From Verrucomicrobiota bacterium (GTDB lineage Bacteria; Verrucomicrobiota; Verrucomicrobiia; Verrucomicrobiales; DEV007), in the NCBI GenBank assembly GCA_027618625.1, contig JAQCER010000260.1, forward strand, positions 1 through 5,850: a DNA stretch of 5,850 bases, given 5' to 3'. Within the stretch, counting starts at the first letter, position 1, and every line of letters starts with the position of its first letter. Positions 1 to 5,689 of the stretch are shown in pieces. The position numbers were made by a program, and so were the translations under genes. The notes under the pieces are model-generated. The model was not told where the DNA came from and did not search any database. It was given only the letters and a program-made list of their open reading frames with translations.

Positions 1-816
1 TTCAGGTTTGGGTAGCGAGTGATCCAGTGGTTCGCCCCGTGGCGCAGCTGCTGTTGGTAGCAAGGCAACGCGCCGATCAGCGACTCGGTGGCATCGACCA
101 GCAACGGCTCGCCGTTGATCATCTCCAACTGAACCTCTTCGAGTTTTTCCAGACGCAGCCACCGCAGCCGCGGCGCGCGATCTTCCTCGGGAACGTATTC
201 CCATCCGCACGACCAAGTGGCCGTCTGCTGAACACCGGCCTGCGCGCCCTGCGGCCCGACAAGAGACCTGCGAGACGATCTCATCACCGCTTGGTTCGAT
301 CCGAAACTGCTTGAGCTCGACACGGGGTTCCGCAGCGTCCGGCGGCCACGACGACCGCACTTGACCGAGCGCCTGCCGCAGCCCGGCCACGCCCGCGCGA
401 GTGGCTTGAGCTTTACGATCCGGCTCCCAATGGAGGACCCGAGCACCGTTCTGATCGTAGGCGGTCTCGGCTTGGTCGGCCGGTGGGCGCAGTTCGGTGG
501 TCGTAAACCCGCTGTCCAGCATGGTCGTCAGATCCTCCGGCGTCGCCCGAGTGAGGTCCGCGACTATCCTGTAGAGCTGTTGCGCTGTTCGATCCTGATA
601 GGCTTCTGAATCCCACTGGTCGTCCGGGATTGCGTCTGCCGGGGCGGACAGACTGGCAACGGGCGTTGAACCCTGGCCCTCCTTGGTCTCCTGCGACGAC
701 TCGCAACCACTGATTAGCACGACGCCGATACACGCCAAACAAAGGCCAACGCCACTCAGCCAATCCAAAAGCCGGTCGATCAGCCGTATGGAGAACGGGG
801 TCCCAAGCCCGTTCAT
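1..816 (-). CDS. FG-GAP/ASPIC-family lipoprotein, N-terminal part, off left edge, with apparent frameshift
   Basis: This gene reads leftward from an ATG at 816-814 and leaves the window before any stop. The start gives a basic and hydrophobic N-terminus ending in a lipobox, LISGC with the cysteine at residue 38, so export and lipid anchoring are expected. What follows resembles the N-terminal domain of the large plus-strand protein at 1691: WDSEAY matches WDTEAM, the stretch around LDSGFTTTE matches FDDGVTTID, and near the edge PLLVDATESLIG matches PLFADCTEAVLG, followed by NHWITR against NHWLER. To keep this similarity the frame must change between about 260 and 225; removing one base there, for example from the CCC run at 247-249, restores one continuous frame. 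So it is a frameshifted gene, a pseudogene or a sequencing error. The propeller and later domains would lie outside the window. The function of the visible domain is unknown. No clear ribosome binding site precedes the start; a GTG at 870-868 is a less likely alternative. Confidence 0.82.
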   Translation of the reverse strand, partial: MNGLGTPFSIRLIDRLLDWLSGVGLCLACIGVVLISGCESSQETKEGQGSTPVASLSAPADAIPDDQWDSEAYQDRTAQQLYRIVADLTRATPEDLTTMLDSGFTTTELRPPADQAETAYDQNGARVLHWEPDRKAQATRAGVAGLRQALGQVRSSWPPDAAEPRVELKQFRIEPSGDEIVSQVSCRAAGRAGRCSADGHLVVRMGIRSRGRSRAAAAVAASGKTRRGSVGDDQRRAVAGRCHRVADRRVALLPTAAAPRGEPLDHSLPKPE

Positions 817-833
817 CGGGGTCAAATCGAAAA

Positions 834-848
834 GGAATCGCAGATTCC
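834..848. repeat. short inverted repeat in the PEP-CTERM/lipoprotein gap
   Basis: GGAATC (834-839) and GATTCC (843-848) form a perfect six-base inverted repeat around a three-base GCA loop. It lies between the PEP-CTERM stop and the downstream lipoprotein start on the minus strand. A further GATTCCG copy follows at 855-861. There is no U-tract, so it is not a classical terminator; it might be a weak attenuator or chance. Confidence 0.3.
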
Positions 849-890
849 GAAGCCGGATTCCGGATTTCACTAGGGGAAAGCCTCAAGCTC

Positions 891-1622
891 TCAAGCTCTC
901 CGACGGCGCCGGAGGAACGCGAACGACAGACAGCCGAGAAGCGCAAGCACCGCGGCCGATGGCTCGGGAACCGCAGTTACCTCGATCTCATCGATCGCCG
1001 TCCCGGCCCCAGGAGTCACGATGCGAATTCCCGTTGCCGATGCGGGGGCATTCAGGGTAAATGAATGCCGGTAGGTGTCGCCGAAATCACTCGATGAAAT
1101 ATTGATCCCTCCGATCGTCGCCCAGTCGCTATCCGGTGTACTGACATTTGGATCTGCTAACGTGGTGAGCTGAACGAAGTAGTCTCCAGAAGTGCGGTCA
1201 GCGAACTCGTCGCCCCGGTTACTACGGCCGAACGCGAACGAAGTGATGAGGTGCGGCGACGCGCCGACCAAGTCGAGAGCGGCAAAGGTCGAGGTAACGT
1301 CCGTGGATCCATTGTTATCCAGATCGATGGCCCGGGTGGTCACACCAATCCAGCTATTGGCATTACCATAAACGCCATCATTGAGGCCCGGGATCGAGTG
1401 GGGTGGGTTATGTCCGACGTCGATGGCAAATGGCGTGGCCGATAACCCCAGATTGGGAGGGACGGCTCCCGATTCAACTAGCGGGCCGTTAACCCCATCA
1501 AAAGTGAAGGAAGAGCCTGGTGCTACAGTGACTGCGGCACTGGCAACACCAGCACTGATGAAAACTGTGCAAACTAACGTCAGGAGAGACAGTTGCGTCG
1601 AAATTTGCAATCTTAGCTTCAT
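891..1622 (-). CDS. PEP-CTERM sorting domain-containing exported protein
   Basis: A complete gene of 243 residues. Residues 1-29 form a classical Sec signal peptide: KLR, then a hydrophobic stretch, with likely cleavage after GVASA. Residues 218-243 are a textbook PEP-CTERM tail: VPEPS, a hydrophobic segment (AAVLALLGCLSFAFL), then five arginines. Such tails direct exported proteins to an exosortase-type sorting and anchoring system. The middle is rich in Gly, Ser, Thr, Asp and Asn and looks like an all-beta secreted domain; the segment NDGVYGNANSWIGV and the later SFAFGRSNRGDE are reminiscent of discoidin or carbohydrate-binding-like sandwich folds, but that is a weak impression. Its ligand is unknown. 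It lies 74 bp upstream of the minus-strand lipoprotein gene in the same direction, so the two could be co-transcribed. It is divergent from the large plus-strand gene. No Shine-Dalgarno sequence is visible before the ATG at 1622-1620. Confidence 0.9.
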   Translation of the reverse strand: MKLRLQISTQLSLLTLVCTVFISAGVASAAVTVAPGSSFTFDGVNGPLVESGAVPPNLGLSATPFAIDVGHNPPHSIPGLNDGVYGNANSWIGVTTRAIDLDNNGSTDVTSTFAALDLVGASPHLITSFAFGRSNRGDEFADRTSGDYFVQLTTLADPNVSTPDSDWATIGGINISSSDFGDTYRHSFTLNAPASATGIRIVTPGAGTAIDEIEVTAVPEPSAAVLALLGCLSFAFLRRRRRA

Positions 1623-1690: not shown

Positions 1691-3700
1691 ATGACGCATT
1701 TCGCCCATCAACCAACCCGCCGTCCCGCCGTCGCGCCTGAAGCGACGGTTTCTGGATCGAGCACGAGACAAGAATCTTCCGAGACGCGCCGCGGGATTGG
1801 GCCTACTGTTTACCTGATCGTGGCGGCCATCCTCATGGGCTCCTGCTCGGAGCGTGGAAACGAGGAAAGCGAGTCGGCAGGAATCGCCCCGTCGCCAGAT
1901 GACGTAGTGATTCCGGCGATCAAATCCGCCGAGGTTCCCCTGCCCCTGTCGGCTGACTGGAAGGAGCGAATCGACGATCCATCGACGGATGGCTGGGATA
2001 CCGAGGCAATGGCATCCATAGCCCTGAAACAGCTGAACCAGCTGGGGGGATTCCTCACCGGTCCCAACCGCGATCTTGCAGCGAGTTCGATCCGGGAACT
2101 CGTAACGGAGGAAGCGTCCATCTCCCCTCTCGTGCCCGCGCAGTTGGAGCGGGTATTCGACGACGGTGTCACGACGATCGACCGATTCGAGAATCCGCCG
2201 GCTTGGTCCGAGGCGGCCGGCGGATTGGCTGGAGCGATCGACGGGGCGATGCCTGGCAAAGGCGAAGCGGAGGGGGCACGGTTCGAGTTCAAAATCACTC
2301 GCGTCCTTCCGCAGGCGGAGGATCGTTTTTTGACCCACCAGTATTTTTCGGTCAACTGGCGGACCGGCGAGGCTGTCGTCGAGCAGCACTCGACCTGGAT
2401 CGCCGAATGGCAACGGCGTGGCGGCGATCTCGCGCCACTGATACATCGCGTCCAGGTTGGAGAATTCGAGCTGGCCCGGACCACTCTGGTTGCCGGGAGA
2501 CCGCTCTTTGCCGACTGCACCGAAGCAGTCCTCGGCAAAAACGACTGTTACCGGGATCAATTGCTCTTCGGCCTCAACCACTGGCTGGAAAGGATTCCCT
2601 ATCGAGTCGCGATGAATTTTTCCGGAACGCCCGGGATTGCTCTCGGCGACGTGAACGGCGACGGGCTGGACGATTTGTATCTGTGTCAGGAACCCGGCCT
2701 GCCGAACCGGCTCTTTTTGCAGAATCCCGATGGCAGCCTCGAAGACGTCTCGGAGGATTGGCAGGTCAACTGGCTGGAAGATTCCCGCGGGACGCTGCTG
2801 GTCGATTTCGACAACGACGGCGACCAGGACCTCGCGGTGAGCGTGTATGGCAGTGTCGTGCTGGCATCGAACGAAGAGAACGCCGGTTTTCGCATCCAGG
2901 CCGTCCTGCCGGTGAGCGCATCGACGACATCAATGTCAGCAGCTGATTTCGACCGGGATGGCCTGCTCGACTTGTATATCTGCAGCTATGCTCCGGATTC
3001 TTCCCTCACGGAATCGGCGCGGGTAGGGATCGACGGAATGACCGACCGGCTCGTCTACCACGACTCGAATTCCGGCGCGGAGAACGCGTTGTTCCACAAT
3101 CGATCGGTGGCTGGCCGCTGGGAGTTTGCCAACGTGACCAACGAGGCGGGCCTCGGCGTCAACAACCACCGATGGAGCCTCGCGTCCGCCTGGGAAGATT
3201 TCGACAATGATGGAGATCAGGATCTCTATGTGGCGAATGACTTCGGAAGGAACAATTTGTACCGCAACGACACCGAAGGACCTGCCCTGAAGCTCGTCGA
3301 CGTGGCGGCAGTCACCGGCACCGAAGATAGCGCATCGGGAATGTCTGCTGCTTGGGGCGACTACGATCGCGACGGCTGGATGGACCTTTACGTTTCCAAT
3401 ATGTTTTCGTCTGCGGGGAGCCGAATTACGGTGCAACCGAAGTTCAAGCCGGAGTTGCCAGATACGGTGCGGCGGCGCTTCTCGCGATTTGCGAGAGGAA
3501 ATTCCCTATTCAAGAACGGAGGTCGGACAGTGGCGGATAACGGGCCGGTTTTTACCGATGTGAGCGAGTCCGCCCGCGTGACAATGGGGCGCTGGGCGTG
3601 GGGTTCGAATTTCGCGGATTTTAACAACGACGGTTGGGAAGATCTCGTGGTCGCAAACGGAAATGTCACCGGCCTGGATGAGACCAGTGGTGACTTGTGA
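1691..3700 (+). CDS. N-terminal segment up to the internal TGA: signal, unknown domain, six propeller motifs
   Basis: This is the 669-residue part that would be made if UGA terminates. A charged N-terminus of about 36 residues precedes a hydrophobic stretch (TVYLIVAAILMGSC, residues 39-52) ending in a near-lipobox, MGSC, so lipid anchoring at Cys52 is likely but not a perfect consensus. Residues about 85-305 align with the paralogous minus-strand gene and have no function I recognise. Six FG-GAP/VCBS-type calcium-binding motifs follow: DVNGDGLDD (320), DFDNDGDQD (372), DFDRDGLLD (419), DFDNDGDQD (503), DYDRDGWMD (557) and DFNNDGWED (643). These are typical of integrin-alpha-like or CRTAC1-like propellers, usually exported. 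The segment stops at TSGDL, 19 residues after the sixth motif, without completing the propeller. As a stand-alone protein it would therefore lack a blade and the ASPIC domain that normally follows. Confidence 0.85.
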   Translation: MTHFAHQPTRRPAVAPEATVSGSSTRQESSETRRGIGPTVYLIVAAILMGSCSERGNEESESAGIAPSPDDVVIPAIKSAEVPLPLSADWKERIDDPSTDGWDTEAMASIALKQLNQLGGFLTGPNRDLAASSIRELVTEEASISPLVPAQLERVFDDGVTTIDRFENPPAWSEAAGGLAGAIDGAMPGKGEAEGARFEFKITRVLPQAEDRFLTHQYFSVNWRTGEAVVEQHSTWIAEWQRRGGDLAPLIHRVQVGEFELARTTLVAGRPLFADCTEAVLGKNDCYRDQLLFGLNHWLERIPYRVAMNFSGTPGIALGDVNGDGLDDLYLCQEPGLPNRLFLQNPDGSLEDVSEDWQVNWLEDSRGTLLVDFDNDGDQDLAVSVYGSVVLASNEENAGFRIQAVLPVSASTTSMSAADFDRDGLLDLYICSYAPDSSLTESARVGIDGMTDRLVYHDSNSGAENALFHNRSVAGRWEFANVTNEAGLGVNNHRWSLASAWEDFDNDGDQDLYVANDFGRNNLYRNDTEGPALKLVDVAAVTGTEDSASGMSAAWGDYDRDGWMDLYVSNMFSSAGSRITVQPKFKPELPDTVRRRFSRFARGNSLFKNGGRTVADNGPVFTDVSESARVTMGRWAWGSNFADFNNDGWEDLVVANGNVTGLDETSGDL

Positions 3701-5689
3701 AGTTTTTTCTGGCGGCAGGTCGTGTCGCAAACCCCGAACTCAGACGCAGACCGGACGGGCAGAGCCGACGCCAATGAACAGTTCCGAACGCTGATGAGCC
3801 GTGGAGGTTCCCTGAGCGGCAACGAGCGCAATTGTTGCTTCCTCAATCTGGGGGCCAGGCCGGGCGAAGCGCCCCAGTTTGCAAATATTTCTGCCGGGAG
3901 TGGCTTGGATCTTGATGATGATGGCCGAGCCCTGACATTTGCTGAGCCGGAAGATGATGGTGATCTGGACCTTTGGATTTCCAATCGCAACGCCCCGAGG
4001 CTGCGCTTCATGCGCAACGACACGCCTCGGCGGAACCATTACGTTACCCTCCGCCTCGTGGGAAACGGGACCGCCACGAACCGCGACGCCATCGGGGCCC
4101 GGGTCCAGGTTATACACAAGGAAAACGTGATATCCGTCCGCACGCTCCGGGCTGGCGAAGGCTACCTCGCGCAATCAAGCAAGTGGCTTCACTTCGGCTT
4201 GGGCAACTCTGGTCAGATCGAGAAAGTCATTGTCCACTGGCCCGACCGTGACGGGACGGTCGAAGAATTCACGGGGCTCTCGGTCAACCAGCGTTATTCC
4301 CTCGTGCAAGGTCAGGGCAAGGCCCTCCCTGGAGAGGCCGAACGGGTGGTGCCGACGTTGAGACCTTCGACTCCGGTGCTGCCAGCCTCCAGCCGCTCCG
4401 CCAGAATTCCACTGGTGACATTGCTGCCGTTTCCGGGCTTGACCCTGAAGGGAGCGGCGGGCGAGACGGTCCAGTTAGGGGCCGGAAAACCGGTTCTCCT
4501 CAACCTTTGGGCGAGCTGGTGCGCGCCCTGCCTCGAGGAACTCGGGGAGATCAGGGATCGCGAAGCCGAAATCCGTGCAGCCGGAATTGAAGTGATAGCC
4601 CTCTCGGTCGACGGATTGGGTGACGACCGTTCGGATCCGGCAGACACAAACGCAATCATCGAGAAGCTCGGATTCCCGTTTGTCAGCGCGCTGGCCGATC
4701 AAGATCTCGTGGGATTGCTCCAGTGGCACCACGACGCATCGGTCGGCCTCCATCGCGCCCTCCCATTGCCATCGAGTTTCCTCATCGACGGAGTCGGCCG
4801 GGTATCCGTGATCTACAAAGGGGCCTTATCTATCGACGCGCTGCTCAGCGATGTCGGACACTCAGGGGGGAATCGCGCCCAACGATGGGAGCGCTCAGCC
4901 ATGATCGCCGGGCGATCGATTCAACACCAAGTCATCACCAACACCGCCGACGACTTCGAGGCGACCCTGCACTTTCAACATGGTATCCAGAGAGAGACTC
5001 TGGGTGACATGACCAGGGCAATCGGTCATTATCAGGAATCCCTGCGCATTCGCACCGGGTTCGCCCTGGCACATCGTAACTTGGGGCGGCTGCTCGCAAA
5101 GCGAGGAGACTGGAGCGATGCCTTGCCGCACTTCGAGAATTACGCGCGCATCAGCCCGCAAGATGCCGCCGGTCAACATGCGCTGGCGATCTGCCATCAA
5201 CAACTGGGCAACAATGAAATCGCCCGGACCCAATTTGAAAAAACAATCCGTATCGATCCCGGCCACGTTCAGTCTCTCGATGCGCTTGGCTCCATCCATC
5301 TGCTGGCAGGCGATGCGGCGGAAGCGGTCAGGTATTTCCAATCCGTTCTCGAACTTGCCCCCGATCGATCCTTCGCGAGGAACAATCTCGCCTGGATACT
5401 TGCCACCTGCCCGAACCCCGAGATCCGCGACGGAGAGAAGGCGCTTCTACTGGCAACTCAGCTCGTCGAGAACGAGGGAGGAGAAAAACCCGCGTTTCTC
5501 GACACGCTTTCCGCCGCTCAAGCGGAATGCGGCCACTTCAAAGAAGCGATCGCCACCGCCCGGCGAGGTGCCCAACTTGCGCGGAACGCCGAACAAGCTG
5601 CACTCGCATCGCAGATGGAGCAGAGGATCACCCTTTACCAACGCGGTGAAGCCTATCGAGACAGTTCCGCGAGAAGTGGAGACGAATGA
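1691..5689 (+). CDS. candidate selenoprotein: FG-GAP propeller-ASPIC/UnbV-thioredoxin-TPR lipoprotein, read through UGA
   Basis: One frame runs from ATG 1691 to TGA 5687-5689 with a single internal stop, TGA at 3698-3700 (codon 670). Read through, it gives 1,332 residues: lipoprotein-type signal (to about 52), an unknown domain (about 85-305), a propeller with seven DxDxDG-like motifs (320-760), ASPIC/UnbV (about 798-874), a TlpA-like thioredoxin domain (about 912-1052, WCAPC at 943-947) and six TPR-like repeats (about 1090-1297). The codons just after the TGA (SFFWRQVVSQ) are coding-like and no other stop occurs, so the two halves are one gene. A SECIS-like hairpin follows the TGA, which makes selenocysteine the best explanation. 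Alternatives are a recent nonsense mutation, a sequencing error, or two separate genes. The ATG at 1691 is the only reasonable start because the next ATG (codon 49) falls at the end of the signal segment. No clear Shine-Dalgarno sequence is seen. The gene is divergent from a PEP-CTERM gene and paralogous to the gene at 1-816. Confidence 0.75.
3698..3700 (+). other. in-frame TGA, candidate selenocysteine codon (residue 670)
   Basis: The TGA sits between GDL and SFFWRQVV in an otherwise uninterrupted frame. No other stop codon occurs in 1,332 codons, and it is TGA rather than TAA or TAG. Decoding as selenocysteine requires SelA, SelB, SelC (tRNA-Sec) and SelD elsewhere in the genome; none of them is in this window. 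The residue would lie between the sixth and seventh propeller motifs. Confidence 0.7.
3702..3732 (+). promoter_or_regulatory. candidate bacterial SECIS hairpin
   Basis: Directly after the TGA the RNA can form a five-pair stem, GCGGC (3712-3716) with GUCGC (3724-3728), including one G-U pair. It closes a seven-nucleotide loop AGGUCGU (3717-3723). A lower helix GUUU (3702-3705) with AAAC (3729-3732) can stack below it across a six-nucleotide bulge. The loop begins 16 nt after the UGA and has G at its second position. That fits the known bacterial SECIS pattern, and the AGGUC core is the same as in the E. coli fdhF loop (AGGUCU, 17 nt after its UGA), where SelB binds. The hairpin lies inside coding sequence, as bacterial SECIS elements do. 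Folding was done by eye, and the loop bases are also constrained by the encoded Gln-Val. Confidence 0.65.
3722..5689 (+). CDS. C-terminal segment after the TGA: last propeller motif, ASPIC/UnbV, TlpA thioredoxin, TPR
   Basis: If called alone, this starts at GTG 3722 and gives 655 residues, but that GTG lies in the SECIS-like loop, has no clear ribosome binding site and gives no signal peptide, so I regard it as the C-terminal part of the gene starting at 1691. Numbered within this segment, the domains are: a seventh, degenerate propeller motif EPEDDGDLD (75-83); ASPIC/UnbV (about 121-197: RDAIGARV, then the AGEGYLAQSSKWLHFGLG core, then VHWPDRDGTVEEF); a linker rich in Pro and Ser; a TlpA/ResA-like thioredoxin fold (about 235-375) with LWASWCAPC (active Cys 267 and 270) and a likely cis-Pro at LPLPSSFLID; then six TPR-like repeats (about 413-620) for protein-protein contacts. 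A vicinal Cys pair, NCCF (38-39), lies soon after the TGA. TlpA-type domains on exported proteins usually act as periplasmic thiol-disulfide oxidoreductases. Adjacent domains suggest an envelope redox or assembly role, but the substrate is unknown. Confidence 0.85.
   Translation: MSQTPNSDADRTGRADANEQFRTLMSRGGSLSGNERNCCFLNLGARPGEAPQFANISAGSGLDLDDDGRALTFAEPEDDGDLDLWISNRNAPRLRFMRNDTPRRNHYVTLRLVGNGTATNRDAIGARVQVIHKENVISVRTLRAGEGYLAQSSKWLHFGLGNSGQIEKVIVHWPDRDGTVEEFTGLSVNQRYSLVQGQGKALPGEAERVVPTLRPSTPVLPASSRSARIPLVTLLPFPGLTLKGAAGETVQLGAGKPVLLNLWASWCAPCLEELGEIRDREAEIRAAGIEVIALSVDGLGDDRSDPADTNAIIEKLGFPFVSALADQDLVGLLQWHHDASVGLHRALPLPSSFLIDGVGRVSVIYKGALSIDALLSDVGHSGGNRAQRWERSAMIAGRSIQHQVITNTADDFEATLHFQHGIQRETLGDMTRAIGHYQESLRIRTGFALAHRNLGRLLAKRGDWSDALPHFENYARISPQDAAGQHALAICHQQLGNNEIARTQFEKTIRIDPGHVQSLDALGSIHLLAGDAAEAVRYFQSVLELAPDRSFARNNLAWILATCPNPEIRDGEKALLLATQLVENEGGEKPAFLDTLSAAQAECGHFKEAIATARRGAQLARNAEQAALASQMEQRITLYQRGEAYRDSSARSGDE

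Follow-up and report, generated by a model that had tools for sequence, protein, structure and literature searches.

Does the in-frame UGA that interrupts a long coding frame on a Verrucomicrobiota contig specify selenocysteine (Sec), and what might such a residue do? The window, the whole stretch of DNA that was analyzed, is the complete contig C244 (5,850 bases) from a draft genome that comprises 941 contigs and 4.82 Mb, with 70.84% completeness and 2.49% contamination. A first-pass annotation had described in it a frame of 1,332 codons with a single TGA at codon 670 and coding-quality sequence on both sides, a short hairpin 3' of this codon, and, as the reading of both, a UGA decoded as Sec. 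The frame was reread and the description held: the TGA is the sole internal in-frame stop, and Pfam domains flank it, FG-GAP upstream and UnbV_ASPIC, AhpC-TSA/Redoxin and TPR downstream. We regard decoding of this UGA as Sec as almost certain. It is supported by a conserved TGA column in homologs, by a covarying hairpin, and by a tRNA-Sec and selA in the same genome.

The read-through window protein was compared with 57 related genomes, its own (G000) included. About 11 candidates were scored per genome, so that sense-codon paralogs may have escaped this survey. A match at an E value of 1e-20 or better was obtained in 26 of the 57 genomes. All 115 listed homolog rows of 165 bits or more had TGA at the codon-670 column. 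Among 15 lower-scoring loci examined, three had TGA, five Cys, and seven another residue or a gap. Overall, TGA was present at the column in 118 of the 130 loci examined, spread over 19 genomes; this set was chosen mainly from TGA-flagged rows, and the unbiased count is the one for the 115 rows. The commonest motif at the column was D-L-U-S-(F/V)-(F/Y)-W-R-(Q/R)-V-V. The codon before the column was TTG in 105 of the 118 TGA loci versus 1 of 32 sense-codon homologs, with TTG making up 15% of the Leu background.

The window's own genome encodes at least 16 TGA members, 11 found in the homolog survey and five by a pattern search. Pattern matches per genome include genomes without Sec genes, and only translation-checked matches were counted. 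A scan of named genomes, covering at least 80 loci, identified 22 sites with TGA at the column, in 21 loci; L164 (Verrucomicrobiales bacterium PL25a_bin.108) and L121 of the 130-locus set are one locus. The record titles of TGA loci name Akkermansiaceae, Roseibacillus, other Verrucomicrobiales, Pirellulaceae, other Planctomycetota, Acidobacteria, Gemmatimonadetes and the BD2-11 clade. At locus L186 (Planctomycetaceae RS395) the column holds TGA, but the motif DGURCVW replaces DLUSFFW; this may be a separate Sec origin or a chance alignment.

The GCGGC/GUCGC hairpin 3' of the UGA (3712-3716/3724-3728) is present in the window as annotated. The fold also pairs A3717 with U3723, leaving the loop GGUCG. 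The hairpin starts 11 nucleotides (nt) past the UGA, and 17 nt separate the UGA from the loop. The model of the bacterial selenocysteine insertion sequence (bSECIS) in PMC13188914 has a loop of 3-9 nt, a stem of at least 4 bp, a G in the first two loop positions, a distance of 16-37 nt from the UGA, and a minimum free energy of -7.5 or lower. The window agrees with this model, having a 6-bp stem, GGUCG as its loop, a distance of 17 nt and -8.7 kcal/mol over 40 nt; so do 109 of the 118 TGA loci, versus 6 of 28 sense-codon homologs. An Rfam scan of the window returned no match.

In the 118 TGA loci, codons +5 to +9 after the UGA are mostly CGG CAG GTC GTG TCG, and the loop GGTCG is retained in 96. 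A five-pair stem forms in 94 of the 118 loci in the main register and in 6 in a shifted register. For the same peptides and family codon usage, only 4.1 stem-forming loci would be expected, compared to the 100 observed. Of the sense-codon homologs, 32 with Trp at +4 were pooled from an Acidobacteriales-class sample and the named-genome scan; the main stem was found in none of them and the shifted stem in four.

Covariation was judged against columns simulated along a motif-free tree (300 simulations). Stem pairs 3-13 and 5-11 were the strongest covarying pairs among all column pairs at least 4 apart; stem pair 1-15 ranked eighth, with non-stem pairs in between. Pairs 3-13 and 1-15 scored above 300/300 simulations, and 5-11 above 298/300. 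Double changes on the same branch preserved pairing in 5/6 cases for 3-13, in 5/5 for 5-11, and in 1/3 for 1-15. The peptide often tracks the RNA: Gln at +6 occurs with Val at +8 (A-U), and Arg at +6 with Ala, Ser or Thr at +8 (G-C). These comparisons argue that the family-wide hairpin is a real RNA element.

In a shorter subfamily with the motif (T/S)(A/P)P...DLUSxxW, the hairpin is shifted by one position, or a five-pair stem is absent in both tested registers. The family may therefore have a second type of SECIS. Contig C775 of the window's own genome (17.9 kb) carries three TGA members (L058, L273, L274), two of which belong to this subfamily, with the motifs DLUSDLWR and DLUSCFWS.

The window's own genome contains a tRNA-Sec with anticodon TCA (62.3 bits) and selA (482 bits). 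In the same-genus genome G001, tRNA-Sec, selA and selB are all present. A tRNA-Sec match was considered as a label for Sec capacity and rejected, being above cut-off in 34 of the 57 relatives and in 5 of 14 control genomes. Because the tRNA-Sec model was unselective, selA and selB were used as labels, and tRNA-Sec helped for G024 alone. Sec-positive genomes are thus those with selA or selB above cut-off (26 genomes), plus G024, which has a contig-end selA fragment and a strong tRNA-Sec. TGA members were found in 19 of 27 Sec-positive and in none of 30 Sec-negative genomes (Fisher p = 3.5e-9, related genomes not being independent), and none was seen in the other 8 Sec-positive genomes. Most Sec-negative genomes (25/30) were without any match; G021, G028 and G032 had weak stop-free matches of at most 161 bits, and G013 and G035 still weaker ones, in rows outside the listed matches. 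In the 19 genomes with TGA members, which are drafts, selB was above cut-off in 16 and selA in 17. For the named loci, selA was above cut-off in all 20 tested genomes behind TGA loci and in 3 of 4 behind sense-codon loci.

The tRNA-Sec locus of the window's own genome (L016, contig C693) lies at 1498-1590 (-) and is overlapped by an open reading frame at 881-1573 (-). Beyond the latter is a frame at 3-884 (-) that looks tyrosine recombinase-like by eye, making the locus a possible integration site.

A number of observations weigh against Sec decoding, and they concern the RNA, the machinery and the residues found in place of Sec. The RNA folding check suggested in the first-pass annotation had a divided outcome. 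The 15-nt hairpin core was outdone by only 3 of 200 shuffles, but longer stretches were unremarkable: folding of 3698-3740 was matched by 65/200 shuffles and that of 3698-3737 by 115/200, and for 3690-3760 the minimum-energy structure lacks the hairpin, with 199/200 shuffles as good. Folding energy of the lone window sequence is weak evidence. Eighteen of the 118 TGA loci form no five-pair stem in either register, nine of them from the shorter TAP...DLUS subfamily. Stem pair 4-12 shows no covariation (78/300 simulations as high), and 2-14 cannot covary, one of its sides being invariant. High scores were likewise obtained for two pairs that are not part of the main stem, 3-14 (2/300) and 1-13 (3/300); 3-14 is a pair of the shifted register, and the remaining five of seven comparison pairs lie at 21-143/300. 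The AGY serine codon after the UGA, tried as a further RNA signal (108/108 Ser), was rejected, as sense-codon homologs commonly use these codons too (26/32), which hence provide no evidence.

As to the machinery, the first-pass annotation had called for a search of the source genome for Sec genes. The search yielded tRNA-Sec and selA but no selB above cut-off in this 71%-complete assembly. Of the other TGA-bearing genomes, G014 and G024 likewise lack selB above cut-off, G008 and G024 carry only selA fragments, and G020, G030 and G034 have no tRNA-Sec match of 50 bits.

As to the residues, in the non-Sec rows with Trp at +4 (105 in all) the column holds Ser in 27, Glu in 21, Cys in 15, Asp in 13 and other residues in the rest. 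The homolog alignment proposed in the first-pass annotation thus revealed TGA at the column in many species together with the hairpin, Cys being one of many residues in the non-TGA homologs. A variable residue combined with a missing hairpin had been named there as the pattern that would speak against Sec; the residue is indeed variable, but the hairpin is present in the TGA forms. Among full-length database proteins (best 120 of 6,825) the column is also variable; TGA forms cannot appear there, since their frames are split. A control sample comprised 121 genomes from the class of an Acidobacteriales record, of which 33 had matches (39 listed rows, 33 rows read). In this sample the column holds mostly Ser, Glu, Asn, Ala, Gly or Met, usually in an SFFWRQVV-like peptide. 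Since selA was found in 27 of these 33 genomes, mostly alongside a sense-codon homolog, Sec capacity alone does not bring UGA. Within the sample, TGA members were found in G126 (L240, L281), G157 (L282) and G170 (L283), for which recent gain, transfer and old retention are alternatives.

A tree of 253 sequences (148 TGA, 105 not) has 15 changes between TGA and other states, compared to about 81 with shuffled labels. Clades rich in TGA also contain nine nested members without it (4 Ser, 2 Glu, 1 Ala, 1 Arg, 1 Cys). The variation at the column in non-Sec rows suggests that there is no conserved Cys behind Sec and, together with the nested members, argues that Sec at this column is not simply a replaced catalytic Cys.

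Residues 270-1085 of the protein were modelled with AlphaFold2 (mean pLDDT, the predicted local distance difference test score, 91.3). The window protein is predicted to have a CRTAC1 fold, and codon 670 corresponds to model residue 401, the opening residue of helix 401-409, so that Sec670 would stand at the N-terminus of a helix within the CRTAC1-like part. A PDB sequence search with the N-terminal half of the protein gave no match, and the NCBIfam rows shown for the protein (25/30) were all under their cut-offs. Most Sec members keep the thioredoxin-like domain with its CxxC motif in the same chain, and this domain therefore probably serves Sec, which would be a redox centre. A redox role of Sec together with the fused thioredoxin-like domain is the reading that we favour, with some reserve. 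On the tree Sec is coupled with the same-chain CxxC, and it is also coupled to Ser709. Cys715 (ERNC) was considered as the partner of Sec and rejected as too patchy, with Cys in only 69 of 148 Sec members.

We propose that SelB and Sec-tRNA bind the GGUCG loop and insert Sec, which would let ribosomes continue past the CRTAC1-like propeller half and translate the half with the ASPIC, thioredoxin-like and TPR domains. The lipoprotein-like N-terminus suggests that the protein would be exported, and the coupling on the tree suggests that the CxxC of the ResA/TlpA-like domain may reduce or reoxidise Sec. The best full explanation, namely at least 16 paralogs in which UGA is Sec by way of the hairpin, in an exported protein with a redox Sec served by CxxC, appears highly probable to us. 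A wider proposal speaks of uncatalogued, heavily duplicated exported selenoproteins in Verrucomicrobiota and three more phyla, with a propeller Sec served by a thioredoxin domain of the same chain, about 15 gains or losses of Sec without a conserved Cys, and at least 16 genes spent on one selenium-dependent surface redox system. For this proposal as a whole we see the chances as evenly balanced.

Sec670 might be a metal ligand or a structural propeller residue and not a redox centre. FG-GAP repeats are of the calcium-binding type, and Asp, Glu, His, Cys and Ser, which all substitute at the column, can bind metals. However, Ala, Gly and Leu are also found there, and the coupling of Sec with the thioredoxin CxxC speaks against this alternative as well. 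We consider it unlikely.

Less probable still, and in our view doubtful, is a selenium-gated switch in which UGA is Sec but the residue itself is irrelevant, the ASPIC-thioredoxin-TPR half being made only when selenium is available. The variable column of non-Sec homologs and the nine non-TGA members nested within TGA-rich clades would fit such a switch. The coupling of Sec to the same-chain CxxC and to Ser709 (147/148) would not, and neither would the retention of Sec in 115/115 top listed relatives, as a mere switch would hardly need Sec in each paralog.

Decoding of the UGA as Sec must also be weighed against a genome-wide reassigned code, or read-through without Sec. We saw no point in support of either. 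Nearly all 118 TGA loci have just one UGA in the aligned frame, a tRNA-Sec with anticodon UCA is present, and the family tracks Sec genes among relatives, which leaves this explanation very improbable. A genuine stop, a pseudogene or a sequencing error, which might be suspected in a draft metagenome-assembled genome of 941 contigs, is refuted by the conserved TGA column, with coding sequence on both sides in 118 loci of 19 genomes and further TGA cases in records of other phyla.

The loop of the E. coli fdhF SECIS is AGGUCU. Like bSECIS selenoproteins of the fdhF type, the window gene combines an in-frame UGA, a short downstream hairpin, a G at the loop start, and selA with tRNA-Sec. Unlike them, it represents a protein family absent from the tables of PMC13188914 and PMC9312934, has no conserved Cys in non-Sec homologs, and has at least 16 paralogs in one genome. 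CRTAC1 is an animal protein of unclear function. Compared with it (murine structure 9etn) and with bacterial FG-GAP/ASPIC/UnbV proteins, the window protein has in addition an N-terminal part, a ResA/TlpA-like domain, TPR and the Sec codon. Selenoproteins of the UshA-like, cytochrome and outer-membrane kinds are exported. They are further selenoproteins outside the thioredoxin fold, and the names and accessions listed in PMC13188914 give them other domains than the window protein. A thioredoxin-like domain is shared with the Prx-like, UGC-containing TlpA and Redoxin selenoproteins, whose tabulated Sec motifs are UxxC or UGC (PMC13188914); in the window protein, CAPC takes the place of these motifs in the thioredoxin domain, and Sec is found in the CRTAC1-like part, 274 residues upstream of it.

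The claim that FG-GAP/ASPIC proteins are outside the standard selenoprotein families agrees with two catalogues. No FG-GAP, UnbV/ASPIC or VCBS entry is present in the names, domain accessions and motifs of the table of 119 prokaryotic selenoprotein families and subfamilies in a 2026 review (PMC13188914), and the 87-family table of PMC9312934 contains no FG-GAP, ASPIC/UnbV or VCBS family. A term search of PMC12013277 gave no match. Bacterial FG-GAP, ASPIC, UnbV, VCBS or CRTAC1 selenoproteins were not found among the literature matches listed, although the supplementary planctomycete candidates of PMC4807772 could include members. The novelty lies in the family itself, in the number of its copies and in the missing conserved Cys counterpart; otherwise it works like other bacterial selenoproteins.

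If Sec decoding is correct, the family would add to the tables of PMC13188914 and PMC9312934 a selenoprotein with a CRTAC1-type propeller fold. Sixteen copies in one incomplete genome would be a strong expansion, as the largest whole bacterial selenoproteomes given in PMC13188914 have 57 and 63 genes. Gene callers stop such proteins at the UGA, and many genomes probably have them misannotated. The column without a conserved Cys departs from the usual picture in which Sec replaces a catalytic Cys, and with 15 changes on the tree the benefit of Sec becomes testable by comparison. Selenium would rank among the major nutritional needs of these bacteria, and CRTAC1 would gain bacterial relatives with a suggested redox role.

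Table 1. Features of the Sec gene in the window, and loci of the shorter subfamily.
Feature	Position	Strand	Remarks
Whole coding frame, TGA read as Sec	1691..5689	+	1,332 codons; terminal TGA 5687-5689
Hydrophobic N-terminal stretch, end ILMGSC, lipobox-like	1805..1846	+	predicted export/lipoprotein signal, read by eye
AlphaFold2-modelled region, residues 270-1085	2498..4945	+	CRTAC1-like part and thioredoxin-like domain
TTG codon directly 5' of UGA	3695..3697	+	
Predicted selenocysteine codon, UGA, codon 670	3698..3700	+	
bSECIS-like hairpin	3712..3728	+	stem 3712-3717/3723-3728, loop GGUCG 3718-3722
Ser709	3815..3817	+	Ser in 147/148 Sec homologs; variable in other homologs
UnbV_ASPIC domain, residues 800-869	4088..4297	+	
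AhpC-TSA/ResA-TlpA-like thioredoxin domain, residues 914-1039	4430..4807	+	C944-A-P-C947 at 4520-4531
TPR repeats, residues 1125-1227	5063..5371	+	
Shorter-subfamily loci			L041, L043, L140-L152, L178, L270, L271, L273, L274, L280

Two further genes lie in the window. A divergent gene at 1-870 (-) is truncated by the left contig end. Its frame at 3-446 matches the window protein at residues 227-303, with 35% identity across 78 residues and an E value of 5e-14, suggesting that it is probably another family member. The N-terminal part is in a different frame and has no clear match, and the gene therefore looks frame-shifted or misassembled. The Sec gene is adjoined by a gene at 891-1622 (-) for a 243-residue protein, which carries a C-terminal PEP-CTERM sorting signal (TIGR02595, above cut-off).
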